Notes under the pieces: model-generated
What the model was told of the DNA's origin: nothing
What the model saw: the letters and a program-made list of their open reading frames with translations, nothing else
Database searches by the model: none
Position numbers and translations under genes: made by a program
Assembly (NCBI RefSeq): GCF_004216535.1
Contig: NZ_SGWX01000001.1
Coordinates: forward strand, 1,736,001-1,800,000
DNA from: Xylanimonas ulmi
Lineage (GTDB): Bacteria; Actinomycetota; Actinomycetes; Actinomycetales; Cellulomonadaceae
Length of the DNA: 64,000 nucleotides
Reading direction: 5' to 3'
Shown: positions 9,732-64,000 of the stretch, in pieces
How positions within the stretch are numbered: the first letter of the stretch is position 1
Layout: each line of letters begins with the position of its first letter

Positions 9732-9737
9732 TAAGAT
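9732..9737 (+). promoter_or_regulatory. Leaderless -10 box of the methyltransferase gene
   Basis: TAAGAT followed by 6 nt and the GTG at 9744. Confidence 0.5.
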
Positions 9738-9743
9738 CACGCC

Positions 9744-10394: not shown

Positions 10395-10433
10395 GCGGCC
10401 GGGGCGCGCACCGGGCCCCGCGCGCCGGGCTCG

Positions 10434-12397: not shown

Positions 12398-12403
12398 GCG
12401 CCC

Positions 12404-12409
12404 ACCGTA
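12404..12409 (-). promoter_or_regulatory. Leaderless -10 box of miaA-dapF
   Basis: TACGGT on the minus strand, 6 nt before the GTG at 12397. Confidence 0.5.
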
Positions 12410-12473
12410 CGACGCCGCACGGCGCCGCCAGCGCGCAGCGGCGTCGTCGAACCCGTCCGGTTGGGCCCGCCGC

Positions 12474-13088
12474 TCATGTCACCAGGCGGCGCACGGTCAC
12501 GCGGTAGGAGCCCGGCAGGTGCTCGTGCCGGGCCGGCGCGTCGCGCGCCTCGTGCGACCAGCGTCCGTGTGCGGTCACCTGCGCCAGCACCGCGTCCACC
12601 CCCGGCGACGGTTGGTCCGCGACCACGATCAGGCCTGGCATGGCGCGTGCCGCGGCCGACGGCGATCCCCGCAGCGCGGCGAGCAGACGGTCGGCGGCGG
12701 CGCGCACGGTCGCGGCGGGCGCCTGCGCGGGCGTCTCGACCACGTCGACCGCGCGCGCTGCGAGGGCGAGGCCCGCGTCAGCCAGCGCGAACAGGGCGAT
12801 CGACGCCCCGGTCGACGCCCACCCGTCCCACGCGGCGTCGGCGCACCCCGCGAGCGATCGCGCGAGCGGCACGTGCGCGTCCGCGATCCCGGCCCCGGCC
12901 AGCGTCGGGCGCAGCCGCCCGGACCGCGCCACGGGGCCGTGAGCGAGCACGGCGACGGCGCACGCCTGGGCGACCTCGCGGGCCAGGACGGAGCGGACGG
13001 CGTCGCGCAGGCCGGGCACGGCGTCCCCCTCGCCTGACGCACCGCACACCAGCAGGGGCGTGGCGGGGACGACGACGAGGCTCGGCAC
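12474..13088 (-). CDS. Class III extradiol dioxygenase-like protein, function unknown
   Basis: A 204-residue protein whose beginning (PSLVVVPATPLLVCGASG) and overall pattern match the extradiol ring-cleavage dioxygenase subunit-B-like proteins that accompany miaA/miaB in many actinobacteria. The family is known from conserved position; no reaction is established here, and clear metal-binding histidines are not obvious. It lies 76 bases upstream of miaA on the same strand and may be cotranscribed, though miaA has its own -10 box. The GTG start at 13088 is 6 nt downstream of TAGTGT, suggesting a leaderless message. Confidence 0.65.
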   Translation of the reverse strand: MPSLVVVPATPLLVCGASGEGDAVPGLRDAVRSVLAREVAQACAVAVLAHGPVARSGRLRPTLAGAGIADAHVPLARSLAGCADAAWDGWASTGASIALFALADAGLALAARAVDVVETPAQAPAATVRAAADRLLAALRGSPSAAARAMPGLIVVADQPSPGVDAVLAQVTAHGRWSHEARDAPARHEHLPGSYRVTVRRLVT

Positions 13089-13094
13089 GCGCCG

Positions 13095-13100
13095 ACACTA
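13095..13100 (-). promoter_or_regulatory. Leaderless -10 box of the extradiol-like gene
   Basis: TAGTGT on the minus strand, 6 nt before the GTG at 13088. It is back to back with the promoter of the YbjN pair. Confidence 0.45.
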
Positions 13101-13163
13101 CCGCCGGTGGGTGGTTCGGCGTGGTCGCCCGGCGTCGCCTCCCACCGCCGCGACCGTGCCCGG

Positions 13164-13169
13164 TAGGGT
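13164..13169 (+). promoter_or_regulatory. Leaderless -10 box of the YbjN gene pair
   Basis: TAGGGT followed by 7 nt and the GTG at 13177. No Shine-Dalgarno sequence precedes that GTG. Confidence 0.5.
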
Positions 13170-13176
13170 TGTTGGG

Positions 13177-13821
13177 GTGAGGTTCTTCGGGTCACGCCGG
13201 GACGGCGGCTCCGCCGACCGTCCGACAGGAAGGGACGAGGGCAGGACGCCAGTCCGCCGCCACGACGACGCTGATGAGGCGAGCGACCTCGACGAACAGG
13301 AGCTGCGCGAACGCGTCGAGAGCGTGCTGCTTCGCGTCGCGGCCGGCGCCCGCGGCACGTCTGGCCCTGCGCGTGGCGACCGGGGCCCCGTGCCCACGGC
13401 GCTGTCGCACGACCGCGTCGTCGCGTGGCTGGAGCGCTCCGGGTTCTCCTACTTCGCCGACTCCGACGGCGACCTCGGCGGGCTGTGGCACGGCCGGCTC
13501 TTCTACTTCCTGGTGCTCGGGGAGCGCGACGAGGTGCTTCAGGTGCGCGGTCAGTGGCACCGCCAGGCGACGATCGAGCGCCTGGAGGAGCTGCTGGAGG
13601 TGTGCAACGCGTGGAACGCCGACCACATCTGTCCCAAGACGTACACGCGCGTGCGCGACGACGGCGGCGTCGTCGTGTGCGCCGAGACGACGGTGGACGT
13701 CGAGCACGGTGTGACTGACGACCAGCTCGAGCAACTGCTGCAGTGCGGGCTGATGACCGGATCGATGTTCTTCGACAGCCTCGACGCCGAGTACCCCGAC
13801 CCGCTGCAGGAGGCGCCATGA
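13177..13821 (+). CDS. YbjN domain-containing protein (first of pair)
   Basis: A 214-residue protein whose C-terminal ~140 residues form a YbjN (type III secretion chaperone-like) domain: VVAWLERSGFSYFADSDG, LGERDEVLQVRGQW, then CNAWNADHICPKTY and a DVEHGVTDDQLEQLL tail. The first 70 residues are charged and low in order. In actinobacteria such pairs sit between miaA/dapF and miaB; their biochemical role is not known. The stop overlaps the next gene's ATG (ATGA), so the two proteins are probably made together and may act as partners. GTG 13177 is chosen because it follows a leaderless -10 box. Confidence 0.8.
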   Translation: MRFFGSRRDGGSADRPTGRDEGRTPVRRHDDADEASDLDEQELRERVESVLLRVAAGARGTSGPARGDRGPVPTALSHDRVVAWLERSGFSYFADSDGDLGGLWHGRLFYFLVLGERDEVLQVRGQWHRQATIERLEELLEVCNAWNADHICPKTYTRVRDDGGVVVCAETTVDVEHGVTDDQLEQLLQCGLMTGSMFFDSLDAEYPDPLQEAP

Positions 13822-51744: not shown

Positions 51745-51781
51745 GACGGGGCGCGCGCGGCGATGCCGCGCGCGCCCCGTC
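51745..51781 (-). terminator. Strong 17-bp hairpin terminator ending the catabolic operon
   Basis: A perfect 17-bp GC-rich stem (GACGGGGCGCGCGCGGC) with a 3-nt loop, 11 bases beyond the stop of the small peptide gene and upstream of ribF. It is the only obvious stop signal after the tetR-to-peptide gene series. Confidence 0.75.
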
Positions 51782-51792
51782 ACCTGACGTCC

Positions 51793-51957
51793 TCAGCGTG
51801 CGTCGTCGTACCCGGCGAACCCCGCCTCGTCATCGAGCTTCTCCAGCACCACGCGGGGCTTGATGAGCTTGCTCGGCTCCAGGTCGTCGTACCCGGCGAA
51901 GCCAGCGGCGTCGTCGTACTGGTTCGCGGGCTGCGTGTCGTTCGTGCGGTCCTGCAT
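51793..51957 (-). CDS. 54-residue peptide with duplicated AGFAGYDD motif
   Basis: A short acidic reading frame. It opens MQDRTNDTQPANQ, then has YDDAAGFAGYDDLEP, a basic-hydrophobic middle (SKLIKPRVVLEK), then LDDEAGFAGYDDAR and stop. The two DD-x-AGFAGYDD blocks are identical at 10 of 11 positions. A strong GAGGAGGT Shine-Dalgarno sequence lies about 10 nt upstream of the ATG and a 17-bp terminator hairpin follows, so it is very likely translated. It is the last gene in line after three SDRs, an aldehyde dehydrogenase and a P450, 88 bases after the previous stop. No family is recognised. It has no cysteine, so lanthipeptide or sactipeptide chemistry is unlikely; a precursor peptide or a small binding or scaffold peptide are both possible. 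Confidence 0.7.
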   Translation of the reverse strand: MQDRTNDTQPANQYDDAAGFAGYDDLEPSKLIKPRVVLEKLDDEAGFAGYDDAR

Positions 51958-52045
51958 GTCGTCGTCGACCTCCTCGTGCGGCGTGCGATGCCTCCATCCT
52001 GGCCCCCGGGGGGTGGCCCCACACCTCCGGTCGGCGTGGCGTGCC

Positions 52046-52792
52046 TCACGATTCGGCGCGCCTCGACGTCAGCCCGCCGTCGACGACGACGTCCGTCCCG
52101 TTGACCCAGGAGGCCTCGCGCGACAGCAGGAACGCCACGACGGCCGCGATCTCCTCGGGCTGCGCGTGGCGGCCCGTGTGCGCCGCGGCCCGCTGGACCG
52201 CGCCGCCCATCGAGGTCTCGAAGTCGCCGAGGATCGGCGTCTCGACGGGCCCCGGGCTCACGGTGCAGCTGCGCACGCCGCGGGGCGCCAGCCGCGCGCA
52301 CAGGCGCCGGGAGTAGGCGAGCACGGCCTTCTTCGACACGTCGTAGGCCTGCGCGCCGCTGATCCCGCTGGACCCGGCCCACTCGAGCGCCGCGTCGTCG
52401 TCGGCCGCCAGCAGCCATGCGATCCGGTCCTCGAAGCCGGGGTGGTATCCGGCGAGCGAGGCGACGGCGACGATCGCGCCGCCGACCGCGATCCTGTCGG
52501 CCAGCGCCTCGGTCAGGCGTCGCGTGCCGAGCAGGTTGACCCCGATCACCGTCCGCGGGGGCGCGGTGCCGGGCACGCCCGCGACGTTCGCGAGCCCGTC
52601 GATGCGGTCGGGCAGCGCGCCGAGCGCCTCGCGGACACTGTCGGCGTCGGCCAGGTCGCACTCGACGAACTCGATCGCGTCGTCCGGCGCGGCCTTGCGG
52701 TCGAGTCCGATCACCTCGCAGTCCTGGGCCAACCGGCGCGCGAGCGCGGCGCCGATTCCGGACGCCGCCCCGGTCACGACGACGCGCCTCAT
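52046..52792 (-). CDS. Short-chain dehydrogenase/reductase (SDR) 1
   Basis: NAD(P)-dependent alcohol/ketone oxidoreductase of 248 residues, similar in layout to 3-alpha-hydroxysteroid and carveol-type SDRs. It has the cofactor motif TGAASGIG (7-14), NVAG (69-72), catalytic Y150 and K154 (YDVSK), and a helical insertion before the active site (about 120-145) seen in the 3-alpha-HSD group. It ends WVNGTDVVVDGGL. ATG 52792 overlaps the preceding SDR stop (ATGA). Part of the tetR-led operon; substrate unknown. Confidence 0.88.
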   Translation of the reverse strand: MRRVVVTGAASGIGAALARRLAQDCEVIGLDRKAAPDDAIEFVECDLADADSVREALGALPDRIDGLANVAGVPGTAPPRTVIGVNLLGTRRLTEALADRIAVGGAIVAVASLAGYHPGFEDRIAWLLAADDDAALEWAGSSGISGAQAYDVSKKAVLAYSRRLCARLAPRGVRSCTVSPGPVETPILGDFETSMGGAVQRAAAHTGRHAQPEEIAAVVAFLLSREASWVNGTDVVVDGGLTSRRAES

Positions 52793-53565
52793 GTCCCCTC
52801 GATCCGCGGCGGCCGCGCCACGCGCCCCTCGGCGTCCCGCGCGCCCGGTACCCCGCGGGGGCGGTAGGCGATCGGCTCGACGCCGGGCTGCAGCACGTAG
52901 AGCCCGCCGGGCTCGTGGGCCGCGAGCGCCAGCCGCGCGACCGTCGCGGCGGACAGGAGCGGGAACTGGCCCGTGCGGTACTGGGCGGGGATGAGGCCGG
53001 TGTTCACGAAGCCGGGACAGATCGCCGAGAGCGTGACGCCCCGGCGCTCCAGGGCGGGCGCCAGCGCCCGCACGAGTCCGACGGCCGCGTGTTTGGTCGC
53101 GGTGTAGAGCGGGTCGTCAGGCCAGGTCGCCACGCCGGCGAGCGACGCGGTCACCACGATCCGGCCCGGGCCGTCGGCGTCGCAGGCGGCGCGCAGCGCG
53201 GGCGCCGCGGCCCGCACCCCGTTCCACACACCGCGCACGTTGGTCTGCCACAGCAGGTCGAACGTCGCGTCATCGACCGCGAGCGCGTCGGGGCCCGGCC
53301 GCGCCACACCCGCGCCGAGGTTGACGTAGGCGAGTCGGCCCAGCCCGGACGCGGCCTCGACGGCGCGCTCCATGTCGTCGGGCGCGCGGACGTCGGTGGC
53401 CACGAACCGCCCGCCGACCGCGGTGGCGAGCCTGTCCCCGGCGTCCTCGTCGACGTCCGCGACGACGACCCTCACACCGCGGTCGGCGAGCAGTTCGACG
53501 ATCGCCCGGCCGACGCCGCTGGCGCCCCCGGTGACCAGGGCGGACTCAGGGCGCTGTGCGCGCAT
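52789..53565 (-). CDS. Short-chain dehydrogenase/reductase (SDR) 2
   Basis: A 258-residue SDR with TGGASGVG (12-19), aspartate at the end of the second strand (VVVADVDEDAG, NAD preference), and catalytic Y154/K158 in YTATKHA. The NAG motif is altered to NLGAG. The C terminus is longer and proline/arginine-rich (VLQPGVEPIAYRPRGVPGARD). ATG 53565 has GGGAGGT about 6 nt upstream. It is coupled to SDR1 by a 4-base overlap, so the two may act on successive steps or alternative isomers. Confidence 0.88.
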   Translation of the reverse strand: MRAQRPESALVTGGASGVGRAIVELLADRGVRVVVADVDEDAGDRLATAVGGRFVATDVRAPDDMERAVEAASGLGRLAYVNLGAGVARPGPDALAVDDATFDLLWQTNVRGVWNGVRAAAPALRAACDADGPGRIVVTASLAGVATWPDDPLYTATKHAAVGLVRALAPALERRGVTLSAICPGFVNTGLIPAQYRTGQFPLLSAATVARLALAAHEPGGLYVLQPGVEPIAYRPRGVPGARDAEGRVARPPRIEGT

Positions 53566-53592
53566 GACGACCTCCCGCGCACGCCGGCGCGG

Positions 53593-54372
53593 TCACGCGC
53601 TGTCGACGGCCATGCCGCCGTCGAAGCGCAGGTAACCGCCTGTCATGTACGACGACTCGTCGCTGGCGAGGAACGCCGCGGCGCTCGCGACCTCCTCGGG
53701 GCTCCCGTAGCGGCCGAGCTGGGTCAGTGCGGTGTAGGCGGCCTTGGCCTGCTCGGGGGCGCCGGGTGCGGCGCCGTTCTCGATGTCGCGCATCATGGGC
53801 GACTCGATGACGCCCGGCGCCAGCGCGTTGACACGCACGCCCGACCCGGCGAGCTCGGCCGCGGCGGCCTTGGTGAGGCCGATGATCGCGTGCTTGGAGG
53901 CGCAGTAGGCGGCGATGAGAGGCACGCCGCGCAGCCCGGCCACCGACGCCACGTTGACGATCACGCCGCCGCCGCGCGCCGCCATCCGAGGCCCCGCGTA
54001 CTTGAGGCCGAGGAACACGCTGCGCACGTTGACGCGCATGATGGTGTCGAACGAGTCCTCCTCCAGATCGGTCAGCGGCATGATGCCGGCCTGAACGCCG
54101 GCGTTGCTGACCAGCACGTCGACGCCGCCGAGCTGGTCGGCGGCGTCGAGGTAGGCCGTGACGCCCTCCGGCGTGGCGACGTCGCCCTCCACCGCCTCCA
54201 CCTTCGCTCCCTCGGCCTCCACGGCTACGCGCACCGCGTCGAGCGGACTGCGGCCGCTGCCGACGACGACGAGATTCGCCCCCTCAGCGGCCAGGCGCAC
54301 GGCGATGGCGCCGCCGAGCGCGCCCGCCGCTCCGGTGACGACGGCTGTCTTGCCTGCGAGTCGGTTCCCCAT
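53593..54372 (-). CDS. Short-chain dehydrogenase/reductase (SDR) 3
   Basis: A classical 259-residue SDR: TGAAGALG (13-20), NAGVQ (90-94), Y156/K160 in YCASKHA, and the C-terminal YMTGGYLRFDGGMAVDSA. Compared with SDR1 and SDR2 it is closest to the FabG/BKR-like group. ATG 54372 is preferred over GTG 54381 because the GTG overlaps the AGGGAAG ribosome-binding site. It lies 60 bases behind the aldehyde dehydrogenase gene in the operon. Confidence 0.88.
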   Translation of the reverse strand: MGNRLAGKTAVVTGAAGALGGAIAVRLAAEGANLVVVGSGRSPLDAVRVAVEAEGAKVEAVEGDVATPEGVTAYLDAADQLGGVDVLVSNAGVQAGIMPLTDLEEDSFDTIMRVNVRSVFLGLKYAGPRMAARGGGVIVNVASVAGLRGVPLIAAYCASKHAIIGLTKAAAAELAGSGVRVNALAPGVIESPMMRDIENGAAPGAPEQAKAAYTALTQLGRYGSPEEVASAAAFLASDESSYMTGGYLRFDGGMAVDSA

Positions 54373-54432
54373 GCCAATCACTTCCCTGTCTCCTCGTTGA
54401 GATGCGGATGTGGCTGCGAAGGCTCGCCTGCC

Positions 54433-55890
54433 TCATCGCAGGATGGACTTGACCTCCACGAACTCGTCGATCCCGAACTCGCCGAGCTCGCGCCCGACGC
54501 CCGAGTGCCCATACCCGCCGAACGGGGCGTCGAAGCGGTCGCGCGTGCGCACCCCGTTGACCTTGACCTGGCCCGTGCGCATCTGACCGGCGACGCGCGC
54601 CGCCCGGTCAGGGTCGGCGGACCAGACGCCCCCGGACAGGCCGTAGCGCGACGCGTTGGCGATCGCGACGGCCTCGCTCTCGCCGGTGTAGGGCAGAACG
54701 ACCAGCACCGGGCCGAAGACCTCGTCCTGGGCGAGCGGGGAGTCGGGCGCCACGCGCGAGAACACCGAGGGCCGCAGGAAGTGGCCGCGGTCCAGGCCCT
54801 CGGGGGCCCGCGGTCCCCCGGTCAGGAGCCGTGCGCCCGACGCCAGCGCCCCGGCGATGTGTGAGCGGACCGAATCGCGCTGGGCGGCGCTGATCAGCGG
54901 GCCGAGGTCGGTGCCGTCGGCGAACGGGTCGCCGACGCGCAGCTCCTCGACCGCGGCGACCAGCCGCTCCTCCACCTCGGCGACCCGGTCGCGGGGCGCC
55001 ACGACGCGCGACAGCGCGTTGCACGCCTGCCCGCTGTTGGCCAGCCCCTGCCACACGGCGCTCGGGATCGCGACGTCGAGGTCGGCGTCGTCGAGCAGGA
55101 CGTTGGCGGACTTGCCGCCCAGCTCCAGACAGCACCGCTTGACGCCCGCCGCGGCGAGCTGTCCTACGCGCGCGCCGGAGGCCACCGAGCCCGTCAGCGA
55201 GACGACGGCGACGTCGGGATGTGTCACGAGCGCCTCGCCGACCTCACGCCCGGGGCCGGTGACCAGGTTGAACACGCCGGGCGGCAGACCGGCCGCCGCC
55301 ACGCACTCGGCGAAGGCGAACGCGTTGAGGGGGGCGAGTCCGCTGGGCTTGAGGACCACCGCGCACCCGGCCAGCAGCGCGGGCCCCACCTTGGCCGCGA
55401 TCTGGTGCAACGGGTAGTTCCACGGCGTGATGGCCGCCACCACCCCCGCCGGCTCACGCACCACGGTGCTGCCCGCGAGGCTCTGCCGCCACGGGTGGCG
55501 CTGTGCGACGCGGACGCTCGCGCGCAGCACCTCGACGGGCATGCCCGCCTGAGCCGCGATCGCCTGCCGCAGCGGCGTGCCGATCTCGGTCGCCGTCACG
55601 ACGCCGAGCTCGCCTCCGCGTGCGGCGAGCTCGTCGGCGAGCCGCGAGACGAGCCGCGCGCGCTCCTCGACCGGGCGCCGCCCCCACGCGGGCCACGCCG
55701 TCCGCGCCGCGCCGACCGCGCGCTCGACGTCGGCGCCGTCGCCGGCGACGACGCTCGCCACGATCCGCTCGGTCGCCGGGTTCTCGACCTCGATCACCGA
55801 CCGCGACTGGGAGCGGACCCACTCGCCGCCCACATAGAGCTCGTCGCGGTCGCGGAGCAGGCGCGTGCGGACCCCCGCCAAGCCGGTCAT
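54433..55890 (-). CDS. Aldehyde dehydrogenase family protein
   Basis: NAD(P)-dependent aldehyde dehydrogenase of 485 residues. It has ITPWNYPLHQ (oxyanion asparagine N158), catalytic E256 (LELGGKSANV), nucleophile C290 (NSGQACNAL) and the terminal FGGYGHSGVGRELGEFGIDEF. It would oxidise an aldehyde produced by the P450 and SDR enzymes to the acid. ATG 55890 overlaps the P450 stop (ATGA), so the two are translated together, suggesting a close functional link. Confidence 0.92.
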   Translation of the reverse strand: MTGLAGVRTRLLRDRDELYVGGEWVRSQSRSVIEVENPATERIVASVVAGDGADVERAVGAARTAWPAWGRRPVEERARLVSRLADELAARGGELGVVTATEIGTPLRQAIAAQAGMPVEVLRASVRVAQRHPWRQSLAGSTVVREPAGVVAAITPWNYPLHQIAAKVGPALLAGCAVVLKPSGLAPLNAFAFAECVAAAGLPPGVFNLVTGPGREVGEALVTHPDVAVVSLTGSVASGARVGQLAAAGVKRCCLELGGKSANVLLDDADLDVAIPSAVWQGLANSGQACNALSRVVAPRDRVAEVEERLVAAVEELRVGDPFADGTDLGPLISAAQRDSVRSHIAGALASGARLLTGGPRAPEGLDRGHFLRPSVFSRVAPDSPLAQDEVFGPVLVVLPYTGESEAVAIANASRYGLSGGVWSADPDRAARVAGQMRTGQVKVNGVRTRDRFDAPFGGYGHSGVGRELGEFGIDEFVEVKSILR

Positions 55891-57095
55891 GCTCCGCCCC
55901 GCACGACGCGCACCGGCAGCCTCTTGACGCCGCGGAACCAGTTGGACAGCAGCCAGTCGGGCTCGCCGGTCACCTCGAAGCGGACGCCGCGCTGGAGCGC
56001 CGCCTCGAAGAAGAGCCGCGCCTCCAGGCGGGCCAGATGCGCGCCCAGGCAGAAGTGCGGTCCGGCCCCGAACGCGAGGTGCGCGTTCGTGCGCCCGCCC
56101 AGGACGAACGTGTCCGGGTCGGGAAAGACGCGCTCGTCACGGTTGGCCGAGGCGAACCACAGGACGACCTTCTGCCCCGCCGCGACACGCGTGCCGTGCA
56201 GGGTCACGTCCTCGCTCGCCGTCCGCCGCATGTTGATCACGGGCGACACCCAGCGGAGCATCTCCTCGATGGCCGCGGGCAACACCTCGGGGCGTCGCTC
56301 CAGCTCGGGCCACAGGCCGGCTCGGCTCAGGACGCGCACACCGCCCGACAGCAGGTTCCGGGTGGTCTCGTTGCCGGCCACCGTGAGCAGGAGGAAGAAC
56401 GGGTCCAGCTCGTCGGGCCGCAGCCGCTCGCCCTCGACCTCGGCGTGCGTCAGCACGCTGACGAGGTCCTCGCGCGGCTCGGCGAGGCGCGCGTCGGCCA
56501 GCGCGTGGAAGTAGTCGAACAGCTCGGCGCGAGCCGTCGCCAACGCGTCGGGCATGGGCGCGTGGTCCGGGTCCTGGCTCGCGATCATGTTCGTCCACCG
56601 CAGCAGGAGCGGCGCGTCCTGGCTGGGCACGCCCAGCATCGTCGCGAACACCAACAGCGGCAGCCGTTCGGACACCGTCGCGACGAAGTCGAGCTCACCG
56701 CGCTCCACGGCCTCGTCCAGCAGTCCGGTGACGACGTCGACGATCCGGCCCTGCCACCCCAGCACCCGCCGCGGGGTGAAGTGGGGCACCATGACCTTGC
56801 GCAGCAGCAGGTGCCGCGGGGCGTCCATATTGTGGATCGAATGGCTCTCGCCCTCGGCCCTGCGGCTCTGGATCTGGGTGCCGTCGGCTGAGGAGAACGT
56901 CGCCGCGTCCTTCGCCACCGCGTCGACGTCCGCATGCCGCGTCACCGACCAGAACCCGGGACCGTCCGGCTCGTCGTTCCAGAAGACGGGCGCGTGGTCG
57001 CGCAGCAGGCGGAAGGCCTCGCCGTCGCGCCCCTGCGCGAACATGCGCGCGTCGGTGAGGTCGATGGACTCCAGGGTCAGCCCCGAGGTGGTCAT
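55887..57095 (-). CDS. Cytochrome P450
   Basis: Haem monooxygenase of 402 residues. It has the I-helix AGNETT (240-245), ExxR in EEMLRW (278-281) and the haem loop FGAGPHFCLGAHLARLE with the cysteine ligand C349. The RTNAHLAFG and NWFRGVKRLPV stretches resemble the actinobacterial CYP124/125/142 type that hydroxylates terminal methyl groups, but the substrate is not known. No ferredoxin or ferredoxin reductase gene is in the window, so electrons must come from elsewhere. ATG 57095 has GAAGGAG about 5 nt upstream. Confidence 0.93.
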   Translation of the reverse strand: MTTSGLTLESIDLTDARMFAQGRDGEAFRLLRDHAPVFWNDEPDGPGFWSVTRHADVDAVAKDAATFSSADGTQIQSRRAEGESHSIHNMDAPRHLLLRKVMVPHFTPRRVLGWQGRIVDVVTGLLDEAVERGELDFVATVSERLPLLVFATMLGVPSQDAPLLLRWTNMIASQDPDHAPMPDALATARAELFDYFHALADARLAEPREDLVSVLTHAEVEGERLRPDELDPFFLLLTVAGNETTRNLLSGGVRVLSRAGLWPELERRPEVLPAAIEEMLRWVSPVINMRRTASEDVTLHGTRVAAGQKVVLWFASANRDERVFPDPDTFVLGGRTNAHLAFGAGPHFCLGAHLARLEARLFFEAALQRGVRFEVTGEPDWLLSNWFRGVKRLPVRVVRGGA

Positions 57096-57122
57096 TGACG
57101 CTCCTTCCCCGCGTCCGCGGGC

Positions 57123-58856
57123 TCACTGGATGACGGTGACCGTGCCCGTGGCGCCGTCGACCGACACCCACTGGCCGTCCTGGAGCGAGCGGCTGCCGAC
57201 GCCGACCGACACGACGCACGGAATGCCCAGCTCGCGGCTGACGATCACGGCATGGCTGACGGTCGCCCCCTGGTCCACGACGACGGCCCCGGCCGGGATG
57301 AACAGCGGCGTCCACGACGAGTCGGTGATCGCGGCGACCAGCACGTCGCCGGGCTCCAACCCGCGCGGGTCCGACGGGTCGGTGATGACGCGCACACGGC
57401 CGGTCGCGGTCCCCGGGCAGCCGGGCACGCCCTGGAGCACGTCGCCGGGCGCCGCGGGGGCGACGTCGACCGCCCGGCGCCGCCACGTGTCGAGCGGGGG
57501 CACCTGTCCGTCGACGATGAACGGAGCCTCGAGCGCCGCGAGCCGGGCCATCTGCTCCTTGCGCGGGGGCACGATCTGCGCGACCTGGGAGGCGTCGGAG
57601 ATGACTGACGTCCACTCGGCGTCGGTGAGCATGCCGAAGTCCTCGACCTCGGCGAAGACTCCCCGCTCGACCATGCGACGGCCCAGCTCGCGCATCGCCA
57701 TGCGCGCCTCGTGCACCAGGGTGATCACGTTGGTCTTGCTGCGCTCGCGTCCCGCCAGGAACGTGCGGGCCGCCTGCGCGCCCGCCAGGAACTGCGCCTG
57801 GGTCGGCGGGTCACCCGCCAGCGCGGCCGCGGCCTGGGCGAGCGCCGCCTCGCGCTCGGAGCCGAGTCGCCGCTGCGCGTCGCGGGGGTCCGCCGAGTTG
57901 GGGGCGTGACGGATCCGGTCGATGGCCGACCACGCGATCTCGGGGTGCGTCTCGAACGTGCGTGACCGCATCTCCCACTCGTTGAAGCCCCGGGCGCCGT
58001 GGGCGCGGATGAACATGTCGAACGCCGCCAGGAACCCGGTGGCGTCGGGGTGGCTCGAGGCCTCGAGGCGTGCGCGCAGCCCGTCGACGCCCGTGTCGAA
58101 GGCCTGCGTGAGGTGCGCGGAGGCGGTCACCGTCCGCGACAGGTCCCACAGCGCGTGGGCGGGCAGCGCGCTGTCGACCTCTCCCAGGCCGCTGATCAGC
58201 CGGGTCACCAGGGTCGGGTCGTCCAGCGCGGCGGCGACGGCGCCCAGGATCGCCGGGGGGACCAGCGCGCAGTGCGTCAGGAAGATGTGCTCGACCCACA
58301 GGCGCTGCCAATGGGTGTTGATGAGGTCGCGCGCCCGCTCCAGGAGCTGCGCGTCGGTCAGCGCACCCAGGTCGGGGCGCTGGTCCCGCAGGGCGCGCAC
58401 CGTGTCGCGCGACGCCTCCTGCTCGGGAAGCCGGGTGGCCGTCAGGATCCACTCGAGGGTCTTCGCGCTGCGCTCGGCGTGCGTCGGGCTCTCGTCGTGC
58501 GGGCCCGCCATGTACGGCGGCGCGGTCGCCGCCTCGGCGCCGAAGAAGGTCTGGTCGACGGCCTCGGGCGACATCCCCGGCACGCGGGCGCCGAAGACGC
58601 GCGTGATGCTCACGTTGAGGTACGCGTACCCGCCGAACACCCCCAGCGTCTCCATCACGCCCGGCGTGAACTCGTCGTCGTCGAACGCGCCGAACCGCAC
58701 GAGTGCCTCGGCCCAGCCCGGCTCGGCGTGCGGGATCCCCCACAGCGTCCAGGAGAAGGGGGCGACCGGGTCGGGGAAGACCTCCCCCACGTTGCCACGG
58801 GTGTAGATCGGGAACTTCTCACTCGGGTCGTTGTCGACCACCCATCGCTCCGGCAT
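57123..58856 (-). CDS. PEP-utilising phosphotransferase, substrate and phosphohistidine domains only
   Basis: A 577-residue protein related to rifampicin phosphotransferase, PEP synthase and phenylphosphate synthase. The long N-terminal and central part (1-460) matches the acceptor-binding domain: WTLWGIPHAEPGW and AHGARGFNEWEMRSRTFETHPE. The C-terminal swivelling domain has the phosphorylated histidine H535 in DQGATVSHAVIVSRELGIPCVV. The ATP-binding domain that normally starts these proteins is missing, so it needs a partner. The dikinase at 62603 on the divergent arm is the obvious candidate. ATG 58856 is used because the GTG at 58865 overlaps the AAGGAG ribosome-binding site. It lies 66 bases after tetR. 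Confidence 0.85.
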   Translation of the reverse strand: MPERWVVDNDPSEKFPIYTRGNVGEVFPDPVAPFSWTLWGIPHAEPGWAEALVRFGAFDDDEFTPGVMETLGVFGGYAYLNVSITRVFGARVPGMSPEAVDQTFFGAEAATAPPYMAGPHDESPTHAERSAKTLEWILTATRLPEQEASRDTVRALRDQRPDLGALTDAQLLERARDLINTHWQRLWVEHIFLTHCALVPPAILGAVAAALDDPTLVTRLISGLGEVDSALPAHALWDLSRTVTASAHLTQAFDTGVDGLRARLEASSHPDATGFLAAFDMFIRAHGARGFNEWEMRSRTFETHPEIAWSAIDRIRHAPNSADPRDAQRRLGSEREAALAQAAAALAGDPPTQAQFLAGAQAARTFLAGRERSKTNVITLVHEARMAMRELGRRMVERGVFAEVEDFGMLTDAEWTSVISDASQVAQIVPPRKEQMARLAALEAPFIVDGQVPPLDTWRRRAVDVAPAAPGDVLQGVPGCPGTATGRVRVITDPSDPRGLEPGDVLVAAITDSSWTPLFIPAGAVVVDQGATVSHAVIVSRELGIPCVVSVGVGSRSLQDGQWVSVDGATGTVTVIQ

Positions 58857-58922
58857 GTGACTCACTCCTTTGTGATCGGTTCCGGTGGGGACGGGCCGCG
58901 CCTCGACGGTCCGCTCGCGGCC

Positions 58923-59660
58923 TCAGGGAGACCGCGAGCCGTACACCGCCTGGTACCACAGCTCGCCGACGACGCGGCCGAGCTGCTGCAGCTCCTCGAC
59001 GCGGGGTGCGCGGGCGGGCAGCCCGATGTGCGTGTAGGCGAGTTGGTCGGTCATGGCGCCCAGCGCGTCCGCGACCAGGTCCGTGGCGCGGTCGGCGTCG
59101 ATGCGACCTTCGCGCTCGAGCCGGCGCAGCCATCGCGCCGTCCGCTCGGTGAACTCGGCGCGGATGCGCAGCCAGCTCTCGGCGAACCCGCTGCCGTCCT
59201 GGGCCGAGGATGCCTCGCGGGTCACGCGCATGAGGTGGCGGTGCTGGGCGTAGGTCGTGAAGTACGCGACCGTGGAGCGCACCAGCGCCTCCCGGTCGTC
59301 CAGCCCGGTCGCGTTCAGGCGGCGCGTCGAGCACAGCAGGTCACGCACGCACGGCTCGATCACGGCGAGCAACGCCTCGCCCTTGTTGGCGAAGTGTCGG
59401 TAGAAGCTGCCCTGCGAGACGCCCGCGTTGCCCACGATGTCGCTGATCCGCGTGCGTGTGTAGCCGTACTCGGCGAAGCAGGTGGCGGCGGCCGCGACCA
59501 GCCGCTCGCGGGTGCGCGCGCCGCGGGCGGTGCTCGCCCCGCTGCCGAAGAGCCCGCTCGTGGAGGCGTCGGGCGCCTGCGGTTCAAGGCTCGACGCGAT
59601 GCGACTGTCAGTCGCTATTGCTGACGCTCGCGTCGCGTCGCCTGCCGCCGTCGATGCCAT
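58923..59660 (-). CDS. TetR family transcriptional regulator
   Basis: A 245-residue repressor-type regulator. A variable N-terminal 40 residues precede the HTH (RERLVAAAATCFAEYGYTRTRISDIVGNAGVSQGSFYRHFANKGE). The C-terminal ligand domain includes TVAYFTTYAQHRHLMRV and LGAMTDQLAYTHIGLPA. It is the first gene of its arm and faces the acyl-CoA synthetase arm across a 153-base gap, so it probably controls both arms and itself. ATG 59660 is chosen; 59696 has no promoter room because a TTGACA -35 element is there. Confidence 0.9.
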   Translation of the reverse strand: MASTAAGDATRASAIATDSRIASSLEPQAPDASTSGLFGSGASTARGARTRERLVAAAATCFAEYGYTRTRISDIVGNAGVSQGSFYRHFANKGEALLAVIEPCVRDLLCSTRRLNATGLDDREALVRSTVAYFTTYAQHRHLMRVTREASSAQDGSGFAESWLRIRAEFTERTARWLRRLEREGRIDADRATDLVADALGAMTDQLAYTHIGLPARAPRVEELQQLGRVVGELWYQAVYGSRSP

Positions 59661-59690
59661 GCAGGGAGTTAGCCATAGCGCGTCCACCCA

Positions 59691-59696
59691 TGTCAA
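59691..59696 (-). promoter_or_regulatory. -35 element of the tetR-led operon
   Basis: A perfect TTGACA on the minus strand. A -10 such as GCTAAC/TAACTC 17-19 bases downstream would place the transcript start at or next to the ATG at 59660. Confidence 0.5.
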
Positions 59697-59727
59697 GGGG
59701 CTGTTTCCGGGGCTATGCGCCGGGGTC

Positions 59728-59757
59728 TTGTGCGATAACGGTCGCCAGCCGTACAGT
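59728..59757 (+). promoter_or_regulatory. Promoter of the acyl-CoA synthetase arm
   Basis: TTGTGC, 18-base spacer, TACAGT. The transcript would start near 59764, just before the inverted repeat at 59773. Confidence 0.5.
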
Positions 59758-59772
59758 CCCGAACCTGACGAA

Positions 59773-59790
59773 TGTGATCGCTAGTCACTA
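59773..59790. promoter_or_regulatory. Candidate TetR operator
   Basis: TGTGATCGCTAGTCACTA, with GTGA and TCAC half-sites 7 bases apart in the divergent control region. It lies immediately downstream of the plus-strand promoter, where a bound repressor would block transcription. The symmetry is only partial. Confidence 0.35.
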
Positions 59791-59813
59791 TCGAGGAGAT
59801 AAGGATCGATCGC

Positions 59814-61331
59814 ATGTACCCGGGTGACCACGCGCTGCGCGCACCGGAGCGGCCGGCGCTGATCATGGCGAACGAGGGCCGCGTCGTGACCTACCGCGAG
59901 CTCGACGAGCGCAGCCGCCTCGTGGCCGGCGCGCTGCGCGAGCACGGCGCGGGGCGGGGCGACGTCGTCCTGGTCGCATGGGAGAACGACGTGCGCTGGG
60001 GTGAGGTCGTCTGGGCGTGCCTGCGCGCGGGCCTTGTCGTCGCGCCGGTCAACACCCACCTGGGCCCCGATGAGCTCGCCCCGCTCATCACGCAGGCGGC
60101 ACCCACCGTCGTGGTCACCTCCGCCCGGCTCGCCGCGACCGTCGGCGCCGCGCTCGACCGTGCGCAGTGGCGTGCGGGCTGCCTCGTCGCCGACGCGCCT
60201 CGGCCCGAGTCGCGCGGATGGGCCGACTACGAGCGGGCCGTCTCCCGTGCGACGCCGCTGCCGGCCGCGGACGAGGCCGCGGGCGCACGGCTGCTGTTCA
60301 GCTCGGGCACCACGGGCCGACCGAAGGCGTTGCGCCAACCGGTCCCCGACGCGCACCCGCGCGACCTGCCGCTGCGACTGGGCCCGTTGCTCTCGCGCCT
60401 GGGGTTCGACACACCCGACCCCGTCTACCTGTCGACGGGGCCGGCGTATCACGCCGCGCCATTCGCGTTCCTGCAGACGGTGCACCAGCTCGGCGGCGCC
60501 GTCGTGCTCATGGAGCGGTTCGACCCCGCCGCGGCGCTGCGCGCCATCGAGCGCCACCGCGTGACCCACAGCCAGTGGGTGCCGACGATGTTCGTCCGCC
60601 TGCTGCGCCTGCCCCAGGCCGAGCGCGACCGACACGACCTGTCGTCGCACCGGGTCGCCGTCCACTCCGGCGCGCCCTGCTCCCCCGACGTCAAGGAGGC
60701 CATGCTCGAGTGGTGGGGGCCGATCCTCCACGAGTACTACGGCGCGTCGGAGGGCTACGGGCACACCGCCATCGGCCCCGCCGAGTGGCGCGCGCACCGC
60801 GGCTCGGTCGGCACCGCCGTGCGCGGGCGCCTGCACATCCTCGACGACGACGGCGCCGAGCTGCCGGTGGGCTCCGTCGGCGCCGTGTGGTTCGAGCCAC
60901 CCCCGACGCCGCAGGGCCCGGCCCCCCGCTCGGCCTGGGGCGCCGTCGGCGACCTCGGCCGGCTCGACGACGACGGCTACCTGTACCTGACCGGCCGGGC
61001 GGGGCAGACCATCATCTCGGGCGGGGTCAACATCTACCCGCGCGAGGTGGAGGACGTCCTGATCACGCACCCCGACGTCGCCGACGTCGCCGTGATCGGC
61101 GTGCCGGACACCGAGTTCGGCGAGAGCGTTCGGGCGATCGTCCAGCCCGAGCCGGGCCGCGCGGGCGACGACGCGCTCGCCGAGGACCTGATCACCCTCG
61201 CCCGGGCGCGCCTCGCCCACTTCAAGTGCCCCCGCGCCGTCGACTTCGTCGACCGACTCCCCCGCACCGCGACCGGCAAGCTGCTGCTCGCGCCGCTCCG
61301 GGCCGCCTACTGGCCCGAGCAGACACCGTAG
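59814..61331 (+). CDS. AMP-forming acyl-CoA synthetase
   Basis: ANL-superfamily ligase of 505 residues that activates a carboxylic acid to its CoA thioester through an acyl-adenylate. It has the P-loop LLFSSGTTGRPKAL, adenine motif YGASEGYG and hinge GDLGRLDDDGYLYLTGR. The C-terminal catalytic lysine lies in PRTATGKLLLAPL. ATG 59814 has AAGGA about 8 nt upstream. It would take the acid made by the P450, SDR and aldehyde dehydrogenase steps into CoA-based breakdown. First gene of the divergent arm. Confidence 0.92.
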   Translation: MYPGDHALRAPERPALIMANEGRVVTYRELDERSRLVAGALREHGAGRGDVVLVAWENDVRWGEVVWACLRAGLVVAPVNTHLGPDELAPLITQAAPTVVVTSARLAATVGAALDRAQWRAGCLVADAPRPESRGWADYERAVSRATPLPAADEAAGARLLFSSGTTGRPKALRQPVPDAHPRDLPLRLGPLLSRLGFDTPDPVYLSTGPAYHAAPFAFLQTVHQLGGAVVLMERFDPAAALRAIERHRVTHSQWVPTMFVRLLRLPQAERDRHDLSSHRVAVHSGAPCSPDVKEAMLEWWGPILHEYYGASEGYGHTAIGPAEWRAHRGSVGTAVRGRLHILDDDGAELPVGSVGAVWFEPPPTPQGPAPRSAWGAVGDLGRLDDDGYLYLTGRAGQTIISGGVNIYPREVEDVLITHPDVADVAVIGVPDTEFGESVRAIVQPEPGRAGDDALAEDLITLARARLAHFKCPRAVDFVDRLPRTATGKLLLAPLRAAYWPEQTP

Positions 61332-61340
61332 AGGACAGCC

Positions 61341-62600
61341 ATGGAACTGCTGCTCATCAGGCACGCTCGACCGGAGCCGGCGACCGCGCACGAACCCGCG
61401 GACCCGCACCTGAGCCCGGAGGGCCACCGCCAGGCCGGTCTCCTGGCTCAGTTCCTCGCGGGGTCCGGAGCCCGGGTCGACGCGCTCTACCGCAGCCCGA
61501 TGCGACGGGCCGGACAGACGGCCGCTCCGCTCGCCGCGGCGACCGGGCTGACCGCCCACGTCGATGACGGCCTGGCCGAGTTCGACACGGGCGCCTCGCT
61601 CTACATCCCCACCGAGGAGCGCACCGACGACCTGGCCGCGCTCTGGGAGGGCCTGCGGGCGGGCCGCTGGGACGGCGTGACGATCGACCTCGACGCCTTC
61701 CAGCGCCGGGTGGTGACCTGCGTCGAGCGGATCGTCACCCGCCACCCCTCCCAGGTCGTCGCCCTGGTCTGCCACTTCGGCGTCATCAACGCCTACGTGG
61801 CGGACGTGCTCGGCCTGCGCGACCCCTTCTTCTTCGAGCCTGGCTACACGTCGATCACGCGCGTGATGGCCGACCAGGAGGGCCGTCGCAGCCTGCGCAG
61901 CGCCAACGAGACCTCCCATCTGCTGCCCCACGGGCCGAACCCACCACAGGAGGAGACCATGGCCGACCAGCGGACGACGTCGACGCCGACCTCGACGCGG
62001 CTTCTCGTCACCCATGCCCTGCGGGTCCTGGGCATGGCGACGCCGCAATACGTCTCGCGGCTGACCGGGCTGCCCGAGGGCGAGATCGCCGACGCGCTGG
62101 CCTCGGCGCAGCGCGATGACCTCGTGCGCGCCCGCACCGGGCGGCTCGCCGGGTGGTCGCTCACCGCGGCCGGGCGAGTCTGGCATGCCCGCGCGCTCGC
62201 CGAGGAGCTGGAGCGCAGCGGTGTGCGTGGCGAGGTGGAGCGCGCGCACGAGGCGTTCGTCGCGCTCAACCAGCCGTTCAAGCGCATCTGCACGAGCTGG
62301 CAGGTCAAGGACGCCGTTCCCAACGACCACGCCGACGCCGCGTACGACCGTGCGGTCCTCGAACGGCTTGAGGCCCTGCACCGCGAGGCCATGGGCCTGA
62401 CCGGCGGGCTCGCGCACGCGCTGCCACGGTTCGGCTGGTACTCCTCGGCCCTCACCGACGCGCGCGACCGGTTGCTCGGCGGCGACCTCGGTGCGCTGTC
62501 GGCGCCCCTGTCCGGCAGCTACCACGACCTGTGGATGGCGCTGCACCAAGACCTGCTCTCGACGCTGGGCCGCGAGCGCTCTGCGAAGGACGGACACTGA
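61341..62600 (+). CDS. Histidine phosphatase fused to a PPDK-associated winged-helix-like domain
   Basis: A 419-residue two-part protein. Residues 1-200 are a histidine phosphatase (phosphoglycerate mutase-like) domain with RHAR (7-10, H8 the phosphorylated residue), R56 and H145 in VCHFGVIN. Residues 207-419 begin MADQRTTSTPT and carry a winged-helix-like start (LLVTHALRVLGMATPQYVSRLTGLPEGEIADAL), then a helical domain with FKRICTSWQVKDAVPNDH that I associate with actinobacterial PPDK proteins. A strong AGGAGGAG sits just before the internal ATG at 61959, so the second part may also be made alone. ATG 61341 has GAGGA 6 nt upstream; the gene follows the acyl-CoA synthetase by 9 bases. Confidence 0.85.
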   Translation: MELLLIRHARPEPATAHEPADPHLSPEGHRQAGLLAQFLAGSGARVDALYRSPMRRAGQTAAPLAAATGLTAHVDDGLAEFDTGASLYIPTEERTDDLAALWEGLRAGRWDGVTIDLDAFQRRVVTCVERIVTRHPSQVVALVCHFGVINAYVADVLGLRDPFFFEPGYTSITRVMADQEGRRSLRSANETSHLLPHGPNPPQEETMADQRTTSTPTSTRLLVTHALRVLGMATPQYVSRLTGLPEGEIADALASAQRDDLVRARTGRLAGWSLTAAGRVWHARALAEELERSGVRGEVERAHEAFVALNQPFKRICTSWQVKDAVPNDHADAAYDRAVLERLEALHREAMGLTGGLAHALPRFGWYSSALTDARDRLLGGDLGALSAPLSGSYHDLWMALHQDLLSTLGRERSAKDGH

Positions 62601-62602
62601 TC

Positions 62603-64000
62603 ATGCTCCGCACCCGTGCCACCCGCCCGCTGCCCGTCGACCAGGCGCCCGGGGACGCCGTCTTCCCGTTCGACCACGCCCACGCCTCGCCGCCGCGCGA
62701 GCTGACGGACCTGCTGGGCGGCAAGGGCGCCGGACTGGCCGAGATGACCTCGGCGCTGGGCCTGCCCGTGCCGCCCGGGTTCACCCTCGCGGTGCCGCTG
62801 TGCCGCCGGTACCGCGCCGCGGGCTGGCCTGCGGGCCTCGACGCCGCGCTGCGGTCGGCGGTCGCGAGGCTGAGCGAGACGATGGGCCGGTCGTTCGGCG
62901 ACCCGGCGGACCCGCTGCTTCTGGCGGTGCGCAGCGGGGCTCCGCGATCCATGCCGGGCATGCTCGACACGGTGCTCAACATCGGGCTCAACGACGAGAC
63001 CGCCCACGCCCTGGCCGAACGATCCGGTGACCCGTCGTTCGCGTGGGACACCTACCAAAGGTTCCTGCACCTGTACGCCACCACCGTCATGGGCGTGCCC
63101 GACGGGCGGCTGCCGCCGCGCGCGGACGCCCGGGCGCAGGATCCGCGGCAGCGGGTCGCCGCCCTCAAGGCGGCCGTCGAGGCCGCGGCGGGCCAGGGCG
63201 TCCCGACCGACCCCGACGTCCAGCTCCGCCAGGCCGTCGAAGCCGTCTTCCGGTCGTGGGACTCCCCGCGCGCCCGCGCGTCTCGGGCCACGGAGGGAGT
63301 CGACGACGACCTGGGCACCGCCGTCAACGTGCAGGCCATGGTGTTCGGCAACGACGGCGCCGACTCGGGCACCGGCGTCGTGTTCACACGCGACCCCACG
63401 ACGGGCCACGACGTGCTCTACGGCGACTACCTGCCCCACGCGCAGGGCGAGGACGTGGTGGCGGGCAAGGCCATGACGCTGCCGATCGCGCGCATGGCCG
63501 AGCACGTGCCGGACGCCCACCGCGACCTGTGCGCCGCGCTGCGGCGCCTGGAGGCCCACTACCGCGACATCTGCGACGTCGAGTTCACGGTCGAGAGGGG
63601 CAGGCTGTGGCTGCTGCAGACGCGCGTCGCGCGGCGCGGAGCGGTCGCCGCGGTGCGCGCGGCCGTGCGCATGACGCACGACGGCGCCATCGCCCTGACC
63701 CCCGCGGAGGCCGTCGCGCGTGTGCCCGCCGACCTGCGGGCCAGAGCCCGGCACGAGGTGCTCGACCAGGAGGGCTGCGCGGTCGAGTCGACGGCGCCCT
63801 CGCTGGGCTCGGGGATCGGCGTCTCCCCCGGGCGCGCGTCCGGCCGGGTCGTGCTGTCGAGCGAGGAGGCCGCCGAGACGGAGGGCGACTACATCCTCGT
63901 GCGCCCCGAGACGAGCCCCGACGACATCGCCGGGATGTCGGCCGCGGCGGGTGTCCTCACGACGACCGGCGGCCTGGTCAGCCACGCGGCGGTGGTGGCC
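62603..64000 (+). CDS. Pyruvate phosphate dikinase-type enzyme, 3' end outside window
   Basis: 466 codons are visible. The N-terminal ATP-binding domain is PPDK-like: LTDLLGGKGAGLAEMTSALGLPVPPGF, VRSGAPRSMPGMLDTVLNIGLND and DSGTGVVFTRDPTTG. The swivelling phosphohistidine domain ends at the window edge with TTGGLVSHAAVVA (H461). Whether a C-terminal PEP/pyruvate domain follows is not visible; some actinobacterial PpdK proteins stop soon after this histidine. It starts 2 bases after the fused phosphatase gene. It could supply the ATP-binding function that the 57123-58856 phosphotransferase lacks. Confidence 0.88.
   Translation, partial: MLRTRATRPLPVDQAPGDAVFPFDHAHASPPRELTDLLGGKGAGLAEMTSALGLPVPPGFTLAVPLCRRYRAAGWPAGLDAALRSAVARLSETMGRSFGDPADPLLLAVRSGAPRSMPGMLDTVLNIGLNDETAHALAERSGDPSFAWDTYQRFLHLYATTVMGVPDGRLPPRADARAQDPRQRVAALKAAVEAAAGQGVPTDPDVQLRQAVEAVFRSWDSPRARASRATEGVDDDLGTAVNVQAMVFGNDGADSGTGVVFTRDPTTGHDVLYGDYLPHAQGEDVVAGKAMTLPIARMAEHVPDAHRDLCAALRRLEAHYRDICDVEFTVERGRLWLLQTRVARRGAVAAVRAAVRMTHDGAIALTPAEAVARVPADLRARARHEVLDQEGCAVESTAPSLGSGIGVSPGRASGRVVLSSEEAAETEGDYILVRPETSPDDIAGMSAAAGVLTTTGGLVSHAAVVA

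Follow-up and report, generated by a model that had tools for sequence, protein, structure and literature searches.

A 64,000-nucleotide window of the Xylanimonas ulmi genome (3.97 Mb, one contig) contains, from position 52046 to beyond the window's end, a divergent locus of 12 genes in which the parts of a phosphoryl-transfer kinase lie beside a cytochrome P450, dehydrogenases, a CoA ligase and a phosphatase. The best explanation, which we hold with fair confidence, is that the locus is an island encoding a catabolic pathway on phosphate esters, and that its kinase is made up of three proteins: a short pyruvate, phosphate dikinase (PPDK) that ends before the phosphoenolpyruvate (PEP)-binding domain, a winged-helix companion, and a CreH-like acceptor protein with a mobile (swivel) domain. 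This reading builds on the gene content of the locus and its conservation, on domain losses and a conserved histidine in both kinase proteins, and on the co-localisation of these genes in many genomes.

Pairing of the kinase parts

The association was followed through 151 genomes of one related family, which were searched with the CreH-like and PPDK-type proteins; in most genomes the search covered the best nine scored candidates, and profile A1 included L058, taken from one of the searched genomes. A PPDK-type match was found in all 19 genomes with a full-coverage CreH-like match versus 14 of the 132 others, a comparison that ignores kinship; at the level of genera the figures are 6/6 versus 8/25 (p 0.004). 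Among the matches listed there are 38 PPDK-type places, sorted by frame length and score into 24 short, 12 divergent and 2 full-length ones. Twenty-two of the 24 short-PPDK places were fetched, those of G421 and G413 being left out, and the winged-helix companion stands in the same locus at every one of them (22/22), together with a swivel acceptor separate from the PPDK at 20. This set of 22 is tied to the full search, and some other loci described below were picked partly because they held matches. The acceptor takes one of several forms: it is CreH-like, has an N-terminal swivel or, in L222 and L224, consists of a short swivel frame next to an acceptor frame. The PPDKs of the latter two loci (2/22) are longer, yet they too show no match to PF02896, the PEP-binding domain. 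Judging by this recurrence, the short PPDK, the winged-helix protein and the CreH-like protein are very probably linked in function.

The 12 divergent PPDKs, which occur in sister genera, form a mirror type, and each of the 12 has a CreH-like gene at most 15 kb away. In an alignment of eight of them (L208, L193-L199), all eight keep the PEP barrel and the swivel histidine and have lost the ATP-site motifs. Specifically, the protein of L208 (12559-15093) scores 227 bits on PF02896, gives no PF01326 match at E 0.01, and is adjoined by the companion. These eight proteins are possible PEP-only charging proteins. The existence of two kinds of half-PPDK suggests that the charged swivel and its partners are what is kept and that the donor can be exchanged.

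Layout and conservation of the locus

The full two-arm locus, whose conservation the original prediction had proposed as a check, is kept in other actinobacteria. The genus-mate G005 holds all 12 genes in collinear order at 69-88% identity, and Amycolatopsis orientalis DSM 43388 holds a collinear block at 50-73% identity, with 13 genes since the phosphatase–winged-helix fusion is split there; collinearity of this extent in both genomes indicates that the grouping of the genes is not due to chance. Both in the window and in G005 the block sits between truB and ribF, at the same site, and of the nine locus-lacking relatives whose ribF stretch was scanned, eight have truB and ribF at most about 1.3 kb apart, without any locus gene between the two. 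The short ribF stretch of the ninth, G001, showed no truB; the fragmentary genome G006 was searched for the locus, and its ribF stretch was left out of the scan. The block thus looks like an island inserted between truB and ribF. Around the A. orientalis block, a stretch of 21.7 kb gave no truB or ribF match.

The minus arm runs from the TetR gene through the CreH-like protein, P450, aldehyde dehydrogenase, SDR3 and SDR2 to SDR1, and the plus arm comprises the AMP-ligase, the histidine phosphatase–winged-helix fusion, the short PPDK, a ferredoxin and a ferredoxin reductase (SDR, short-chain dehydrogenase).

52046..52792, minus strand: SDR1, coniferyl-alcohol dehydrogenase family (NCBIfam NF009092, 245.1 bits, cut-off 242)
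52789..53565, minus strand: SDR2, short-chain dehydrogenase (PF00106, 126.6 bits)
53593..54381, minus strand: SDR3, short-chain dehydrogenase (PF13561, 190.5 bits; NF005559, 227.5 bits, cut-off 215)
54433..55890, minus strand: aldehyde dehydrogenase (PF00171, 508 bits)
55887..57095, minus strand: cytochrome P450 of a CYP125/124/142-like group (PF00067; best PDB matches include CYP125MRCA, CYP125, CYP124 and CYP142)
57123..58865, minus strand: CreH-like acceptor protein, 580 residues (PF00391 at residues 504-574 as sole domain; His538)
58923..59552, minus strand: TetR-type regulator (PF00440; an alternative longer reading starts at 59696)
59600..59615, plus strand: operator-like palindrome TGCGACTGTCAGTCGC, upstream of tetR (pattern from alignment of this same stretch)
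59773..59788, plus strand: operator-like palindrome TGTGATCGCTAGTCAC, upstream of the AMP-ligase gene (pattern from alignment of this same stretch)
59814..61331, plus strand: AMP-forming acyl-CoA ligase, FadD4-like (PF00501/PF13193; best NCBIfam match NF038341, below cut-off)
61341..61955, plus strand: histidine phosphatase half of the fusion (PF00300, 109 bits, residues 3-187)
61956..62600, plus strand: winged-helix companion half of the fusion (a gene of its own in A. orientalis; modelled with AlphaFold2)
62603..64000, plus strand, the gene ending at window-equivalent 64267: short PPDK of the VadK type (ATP-grasp and swivel His461; NF004531)
about 64264-64458, outside the window, plus arm: small, single-cluster ferredoxin
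64465-65670, outside the window, plus arm: ferredoxin reductase

All the other parts that had been named are present as genes of this stretch (three SDRs, the aldehyde dehydrogenase, the P450, TetR and the AMP-ligase), and so is a PEP-utilising protein split from its ATP-binding domain, with the swivel domain PF00391 alone. Two parts had to be redrawn: the histidine phosphatase is there, but it is fused to a winged-helix-type protein of about 214 residues (a separate gene in A. orientalis) and is no standalone frame, and the dikinase is indeed of the PPDK type, but it is no complete PPDK. The extent given earlier for the locus was also too small, with ferredoxin and ferredoxin reductase following beyond the window.

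The intergenic stretch between the arms carries two copies of a palindrome, TGNGANYGNNAGTCNC, one preceding each arm. This pattern matches twice in 64 kb against 0.09 matches expected, a count that is partly circular, the pattern having been drawn from this stretch. The same intergenic stretch has two palindrome copies in the genus-mate (L033) and one exact copy in A. orientalis (L034). The palindromes would fit control of both arms by TetR.

The kinase proteins

The Pfam domain scan found neither an ATP-grasp nor a PPDK_N domain in the CreH-like protein of the window. Its catalytic swivel histidine, His538, is invariant in 18 of 18 aligned sequences, and its N-terminal region would be where the substrate binds. 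The protein matches the acceptor side of the PpsAB/CreHI/HpeHI dikinases, which has a swivel with catalytic histidine and no ATP-grasp; their other side, a stand-alone ATP-grasp protein of the PEP-synthase/RPH type without a swivel, was not found in the genome. In the short PPDK, the ATP motifs typical of PPDK and the swivel His461 are both retained. No match to PF02896, the C-terminal PEP/pyruvate-binding domain, was obtained, which sets it apart from full pyruvate, phosphate dikinases; with PPDK_N, the swivel histidine and 460.6 bits on NCBIfam NF004531 (cut-off 456), it belongs to the VadK/PRK05878 group.

The winged-helix companion was modelled with AlphaFold2 from a 2-sequence alignment, at a predicted local distance difference test score (pLDDT) of 80. 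Residues 1-92 match MarR/PadR/AspA winged helices; the C-terminal helical half was barely covered in the structure comparison, which gave no evidence of a new fold. With a MarR/PadR-type winged helix in residues 1-92, the companion may bind DNA. In different loci, however, the domain is fused to four kinds of enzyme, namely the phosphatase (window), the short PPDK (L214, L229), the AMP-ligase (L065) and the acceptor (L254), and these fusions, together with the TetR gene and its operator-like palindromes, make a role as pathway repressor less likely. On plasmids of M. branderi and M. avium, too, homologs of the companion lie next to a short PPDK.

Taken with the pairing above, these features make it likely that the CreH-like protein is charged by the short PPDK. 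The kinase would be a variant two-component small-molecule dikinase whose charging protein derives from PPDK and is accompanied by the winged-helix protein.

The principal alternative, which we consider unlikely, starts from VadK (Rv1127c) of Mycobacterium tuberculosis, a PPDK cut at the same place that autophosphorylates with ATP, the site being His422 (PMC13400623). In this alternative the short PPDK is a regulatory protein histidine kinase, and the CreH-like protein is charged by something else, for instance the housekeeping PPDK or a phosphate ester. The same paper describes VadK as regulating the methylcitrate cycle, interacting with its enzymes and altering flux, which weighs against a charging role, and lone CreH-like genes occur with canonical PPDK alone in several genomes. 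Against a regulator speaks the choice of partners: in the loci examined, the winged-helix protein and a swivel acceptor recur with the short PPDK, whereas the metabolic enzymes vary between P450, carboxylase, dioxygenase and acyl-CoA dehydrogenase. Additionally, sister genera that drop the ATP half and keep the PEP half fit a charging role better than a regulatory one.

Several further observations count against a fixed pairing of the short PPDK with the CreH-like protein. Among 28 genomes picked for CreH-type genes, frame length points to a short PPDK in 17, and G658 holds a mirror-type PPDK; G585, G653, G602, G740, G568, G556, G664 and G447 show just a PPDK of full-length size or fused frames, and G648 and G573 have no short PPDK, holding a CreI-type subunit and a PPDK of full-length size instead. 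Lone CreH-like genes are found in G073, G288, G349 and G149, where all recognised PPDKs are canonical and no companion match lies beside the four canonical PPDKs read. The acceptors of these four genomes intermingle in the tree with those of short-PPDK loci, and the nearest row to the window clade is L066 of G073. In such genomes the short PPDK might be dispensable, with canonical PPDK or another donor serving. Conversely, short PPDK and winged-helix protein occur without a nearby swivel acceptor in L257, L268 (Streptomyces NBC_01591), L210, L219, L231 and L232, and without one within 10 kb in L264, L265 and L269. To these are added L218, a contig of 5.7 kb, and L238, located at the end of its contig, where neither winged-helix protein nor acceptor was seen.

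The proposed pathway

The logic of phosphorylating, oxidising and dephosphorylating a substrate, which the original prediction had drawn from the Cre pathway, is supported by the way kinase parts, P450, dehydrogenases and a phosphatase stay linked in other genomes, with the phosphatase replaced by members of unrelated families. Specifically, loci that share the P450 and the aldehyde dehydrogenase carry a histidine phosphatase, SurE (by Pfam) or, in R. opacus B4, a protein annotated as a tyrosine-protein phosphatase. The strongest indication of ester hydrolysis is this recurrence of unrelated phosphatases with the same P450 and aldehyde dehydrogenase.

The P450 scores about 243-250 bits against CYP125, CYP124, CYP142 and another P450 alike, and 355 against CYP125MRCA, presumably a reconstructed ancestor to judge from its name. 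A firm place among sterol and lipid hydroxylases had been named as evidence against the prediction: the nearest solved structures are indeed of the CYP125/124/142 types, but the similar scores do not set the protein firmly inside one family. CYP125, CYP124 and CYP142 oxidise terminal methyl groups of sterols and branched lipids, acting on the free lipids. The proximity of the P450 to these enzymes, and of SDR1 to the coniferyl-alcohol dehydrogenases, leads to the guess that a methyl group is oxidised to a carboxyl group beside a protected hydroxyl.

From the gene set we infer every chemical step, the order of the steps, the direction of transfer, TetR control and the substrate. The short PPDK would use ATP, probably together with inorganic phosphate as PPDK does, to phosphorylate its own swivel histidine. 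With its winged-helix companion as docking partner, it would then pass the phosphoryl group to the swivel histidine of the CreH-like protein, or that swivel would itself visit the ATP site of the short PPDK, and the CreH-like protein would phosphorylate the hydroxyl of a lipophilic molecule, presumably an alcohol or phenol, that its own domain binds. As this substrate the original prediction had suggested an alkylphenol, a terpenoid or a branched alcohol, any of which may be right. The P450, supplied by the ferredoxin and the ferredoxin reductase, would hydroxylate a methyl group of the resulting phosphate ester; SDR1 and the aldehyde dehydrogenase would oxidise the hydroxylated methyl to the acid, the AMP-ligase would convert this to the CoA thioester, and the histidine phosphatase would take off the phosphate tag. 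The freed alcohol may be oxidised by SDR2 or SDR3, which are found in window-type loci only and would suit a secondary alcohol. TetR would repress both arms through its two operators.

That the P450 acts on the phosphate ester is the more delicate part of this scheme, and we favour it by a small measure. Its sequence gives no sign of a preference for phosphate esters, which counts against the scheme. In a rival account, somewhat less probable than a regulatory PPDK, the phosphate is no tag for the P450, which takes free substrate; it would instead act as leaving group or retention device, as in a terpenoid route, and the phosphatase would belong to a different step. Such an account agrees with the closeness of the P450 to hydroxylases of sterols and methyl-branched lipids and with the restriction of SDR2 and SDR3 to the window type, but the recurrence of different phosphatase families noted above fits removal of a tag.

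Relation to known systems

The Cre pathway of Corynebacterium glutamicum (CreHI, CreJEF, CreG, CreC and CreD) resembles the locus in joining a lone acceptor/swivel subunit with a P450, ferredoxin, reductase, alcohol and aldehyde dehydrogenases and a phosphatase. It differs in that the window has a short PPDK and a winged-helix protein in place of CreI, an added CoA ligase and up to three SDRs. CreJ, looked for under entry codes that we presume to be its own, was not among the best 60 PDB matches of the window P450.

The original prediction had compared the two dikinase genes of the locus with CreH and CreI, and this pairing is not supported: the protein on the ATP side is a short PPDK of the VadK type that has a catalytic histidine of its own, and no CreI-type ATP-grasp subunit was found in the genome, whose six PPDK_N places belong to the short PPDK and one canonical PPDK, both with a swivel. 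A clear CreI-type stand-alone ATP-grasp occurs in just two of the 28 CreH-type genomes, G648 and G573. A candidate in G503 (L227, 9393-10643, 417 residues) proved to have a partial PPDK_N ATP-grasp with a cyclic-nucleotide-binding domain and was rejected. A plain CreHI-type, p-cresol-like pathway in which the PPDK gene is irrelevant and a CreI-type subunit is encoded elsewhere is consequently very improbable: the architecture of the CreH-like protein and the set of P450, ferredoxin, dehydrogenase and phosphatase do resemble Cre (CreJ, CreE, CreF and CreD; PMC9549646), but the genome holds no further PPDK_N protein, and the acceptors beside the CreI-type subunits of G648 and G573 (L226, L228) branch far from the window protein in the tree.

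Known two-component dikinases pair an acceptor with an ATP-grasp subunit of the PEP-synthase/RPH type; in the Hpe system HpeI supplies the ATP site, HpeH has the acceptor site and an essential histidine, and HpeH by itself transfers phosphate between two phenols (PMC12167813). The Hpe pathway (PMC9618137, PMC12167813) shares with the window the sequence of phosphorylation, modification and dephosphorylation followed by a CoA synthetase, and an H subunit with acceptor site and histidine. In contrast, HpeI is an RPH-like ATP-grasp protein without a swivel, whereas the ATP protein of the window is of the PPDK type with its own histidine. VadK, with its operon partner Rv1126c, is alike in being cut after the swivel, keeping the histidine and having an adjoining partner gene; it is read as a regulatory histidine kinase in PMC13400623, whereas the set of partners in the window points to the charging of small-molecule acceptor proteins.

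A literature search that covered few subscription papers found nothing joining a PEP-utilizing enzyme, a PPDK and a P450 cluster, bar an Aspergillus paper, and on small-molecule dikinases it gave just the HpeHI paper. If the proposed scheme holds, phosphate-tagged catabolism, so far a matter of a few phenol pathways, would extend to a modular system in which P450, biotin-carboxylase, dioxygenase and acyl-CoA dehydrogenase genes occur. Its named carriers include R. opacus B4, R. pyridinivorans P23, R. oxybenzonivorans S2-17, A. orientalis and Diaphorobacter HDW4B. A P450 with a preference for phosphate esters could also be put to use in selective oxidation.

A possible general relay

In the PEP:sugar phosphotransferase system, a phosphohistidine is handed between soluble proteins before it reaches the substrate. 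The kinase proposed here would likewise be a phosphohistidine relay of soluble proteins, with other acceptors, no transport, and ATP or PEP as donor, the transfer from histidine to histidine being a proposal. More tentatively, and with a probability somewhat below even, VadK-type PPDKs and their companions can be seen as general charging subunits of such a relay, feeding swappable acceptors, with the donor exchanged between ATP and PEP and with VadK paired to Rv2047c in mycobacteria. The acceptors would be CreH-like proteins with a C-terminal swivel, fusions to an NAD-epimerase-type domain, proteins with an N-terminal swivel, or a free swivel with a separate acceptor, and they would phosphorylate lipophilic alcohols and phenols; ATP would be the donor for VadK types and PEP for the barrel-keeping mirror type. 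This offers a testable answer to a current question, the role of the phosphohistidine in a PPDK that has no pyruvate domain.

The epimerase fusions provide a possible link to mycobacteria. According to the domain scan, the acceptors of L214, L217, L229 and L230 are longer, with an NAD-epimerase-type domain, a CreH-like half and no PPDK_N, and in all four loci the fused acceptor stands with a short PPDK and the companion. The genomes of L231 and L232, loci without an acceptor, carry a CreH-like half elsewhere in a frame of about 860 residues. A frame of this length in L103 of G132 shows the same epimerase and swivel order in the domain scan, and six such genes form one clade whose nearest rows are L214 and L217, both in short-PPDK loci (99/100 support). 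By their length and domain order, for which L103 was scanned, the frames of about 860 residues in L103-L108 are probably homologs of Rv2047c, whose published order is epimerase, then PEP-utilising (PMC7058343). In mycobacteria VadK would be paired with Rv2047c, a protein of the pks12 operon that combines epimerase and PEP-utilising parts, and the two might, for instance, phosphorylate the mycoketide alcohol.

In transposon sequencing of M. tuberculosis, PpdK (rv1127c), Pks12 and Rv2047c were needed more with high mycobactin than with hemin, and the authors tie Rv2047c to Pks12; their list includes other unrelated genes too (PMC7058343). Joining Rv1127c to Rv2047c is our own reading, beyond that paper, and the two VadK publications found do not mention Rv2047c.

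Other arrangements and plasmid carriers

A second arrangement, in Rhodococcus and others, has a core of CreH-like protein, winged-helix protein, ligase, P450, aldehyde dehydrogenase, SDR1, short PPDK and TetR, with SurE replacing the histidine phosphatase; it was found in seven loci (L063, L255, L200, L201, L202, L203, L233). The third, on plasmid pROB02 of R. opacus B4, combines P450, aldehyde dehydrogenase, ferredoxin, reductase, a tyrosine-protein phosphatase and a short PPDK 60% identical to that of the window. The same cluster encodes a 793-residue protein (L254, 22038-24419) with an N-terminal swivel, a middle acceptor region and a C-terminal winged-helix companion.

A search of plasmids for the companion gave 23 places in 20 records, and stretches from 16 records were read, one of two places each for ZPP and R. 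opacus VOC-14; the four records left out (two of R. opacus, two of S. atratus) share their match values with ones read. Companion and short PPDK lie within about 10 kb of each other in 14 of the 16 records; the Nonomuraea plasmid showed no PPDK match near the companion, and Streptomyces NBC_01224 showed just a 285-residue PPDK-like piece. Nine of the 16 records (R. pyridinivorans, ZPP, R. opacus B4, N. resinovorum, M. branderi, M. avium, R. oxybenzonivorans, LW-XY12 and Diaphorobacter) have a separate swivel acceptor no more than about 10 kb away, and none was found within that distance in R. opacus G13, R. koreensis, R. opacus VOC-14, S. atratus, NBC_01591 and NBC_01224. In Nonomuraea (L266) a 433-residue frame with a swivel match lies beside a PPDK_N-swivel fusion and was not counted as a separate acceptor.

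Plasmid pA of R. pyridinivorans P23 has two copies of the SurE-form pathway, and a third cluster there is reminiscent of Hpe, having carboxylase and phosphatase genes. A free-standing swivel protein of 125 residues accompanies a separate acceptor protein in L262 (R. oxybenzonivorans S2-17, pRB98), and both this locus and L259 (R. pyridinivorans P23, pA) show several swivel acceptors, a short PPDK, the companion, a biotin-dependent carboxylase, a thiolase and a phosphatase. These clusters look like an Hpe-type carboxylation route with a PPDK module.

On a plasmid of the betaproteobacterium Diaphorobacter sp. HDW4B (L258), acceptor, companion and short PPDK are flanked by ring-hydroxylating dioxygenase genes. 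The Streptomyces atratus plasmid (L257) has P450 and terpene-synthesis genes in the neighbourhood of its short PPDK and companion, and no swivel acceptor match was obtained within 10 kb. In the Rhodococcus plasmid loci L264, L265 and L269 (~8700-13500), which likewise have no acceptor within 10 kb, two histidine phosphatase-like matches stand beside the companion, the short PPDK and an AMP-ligase.

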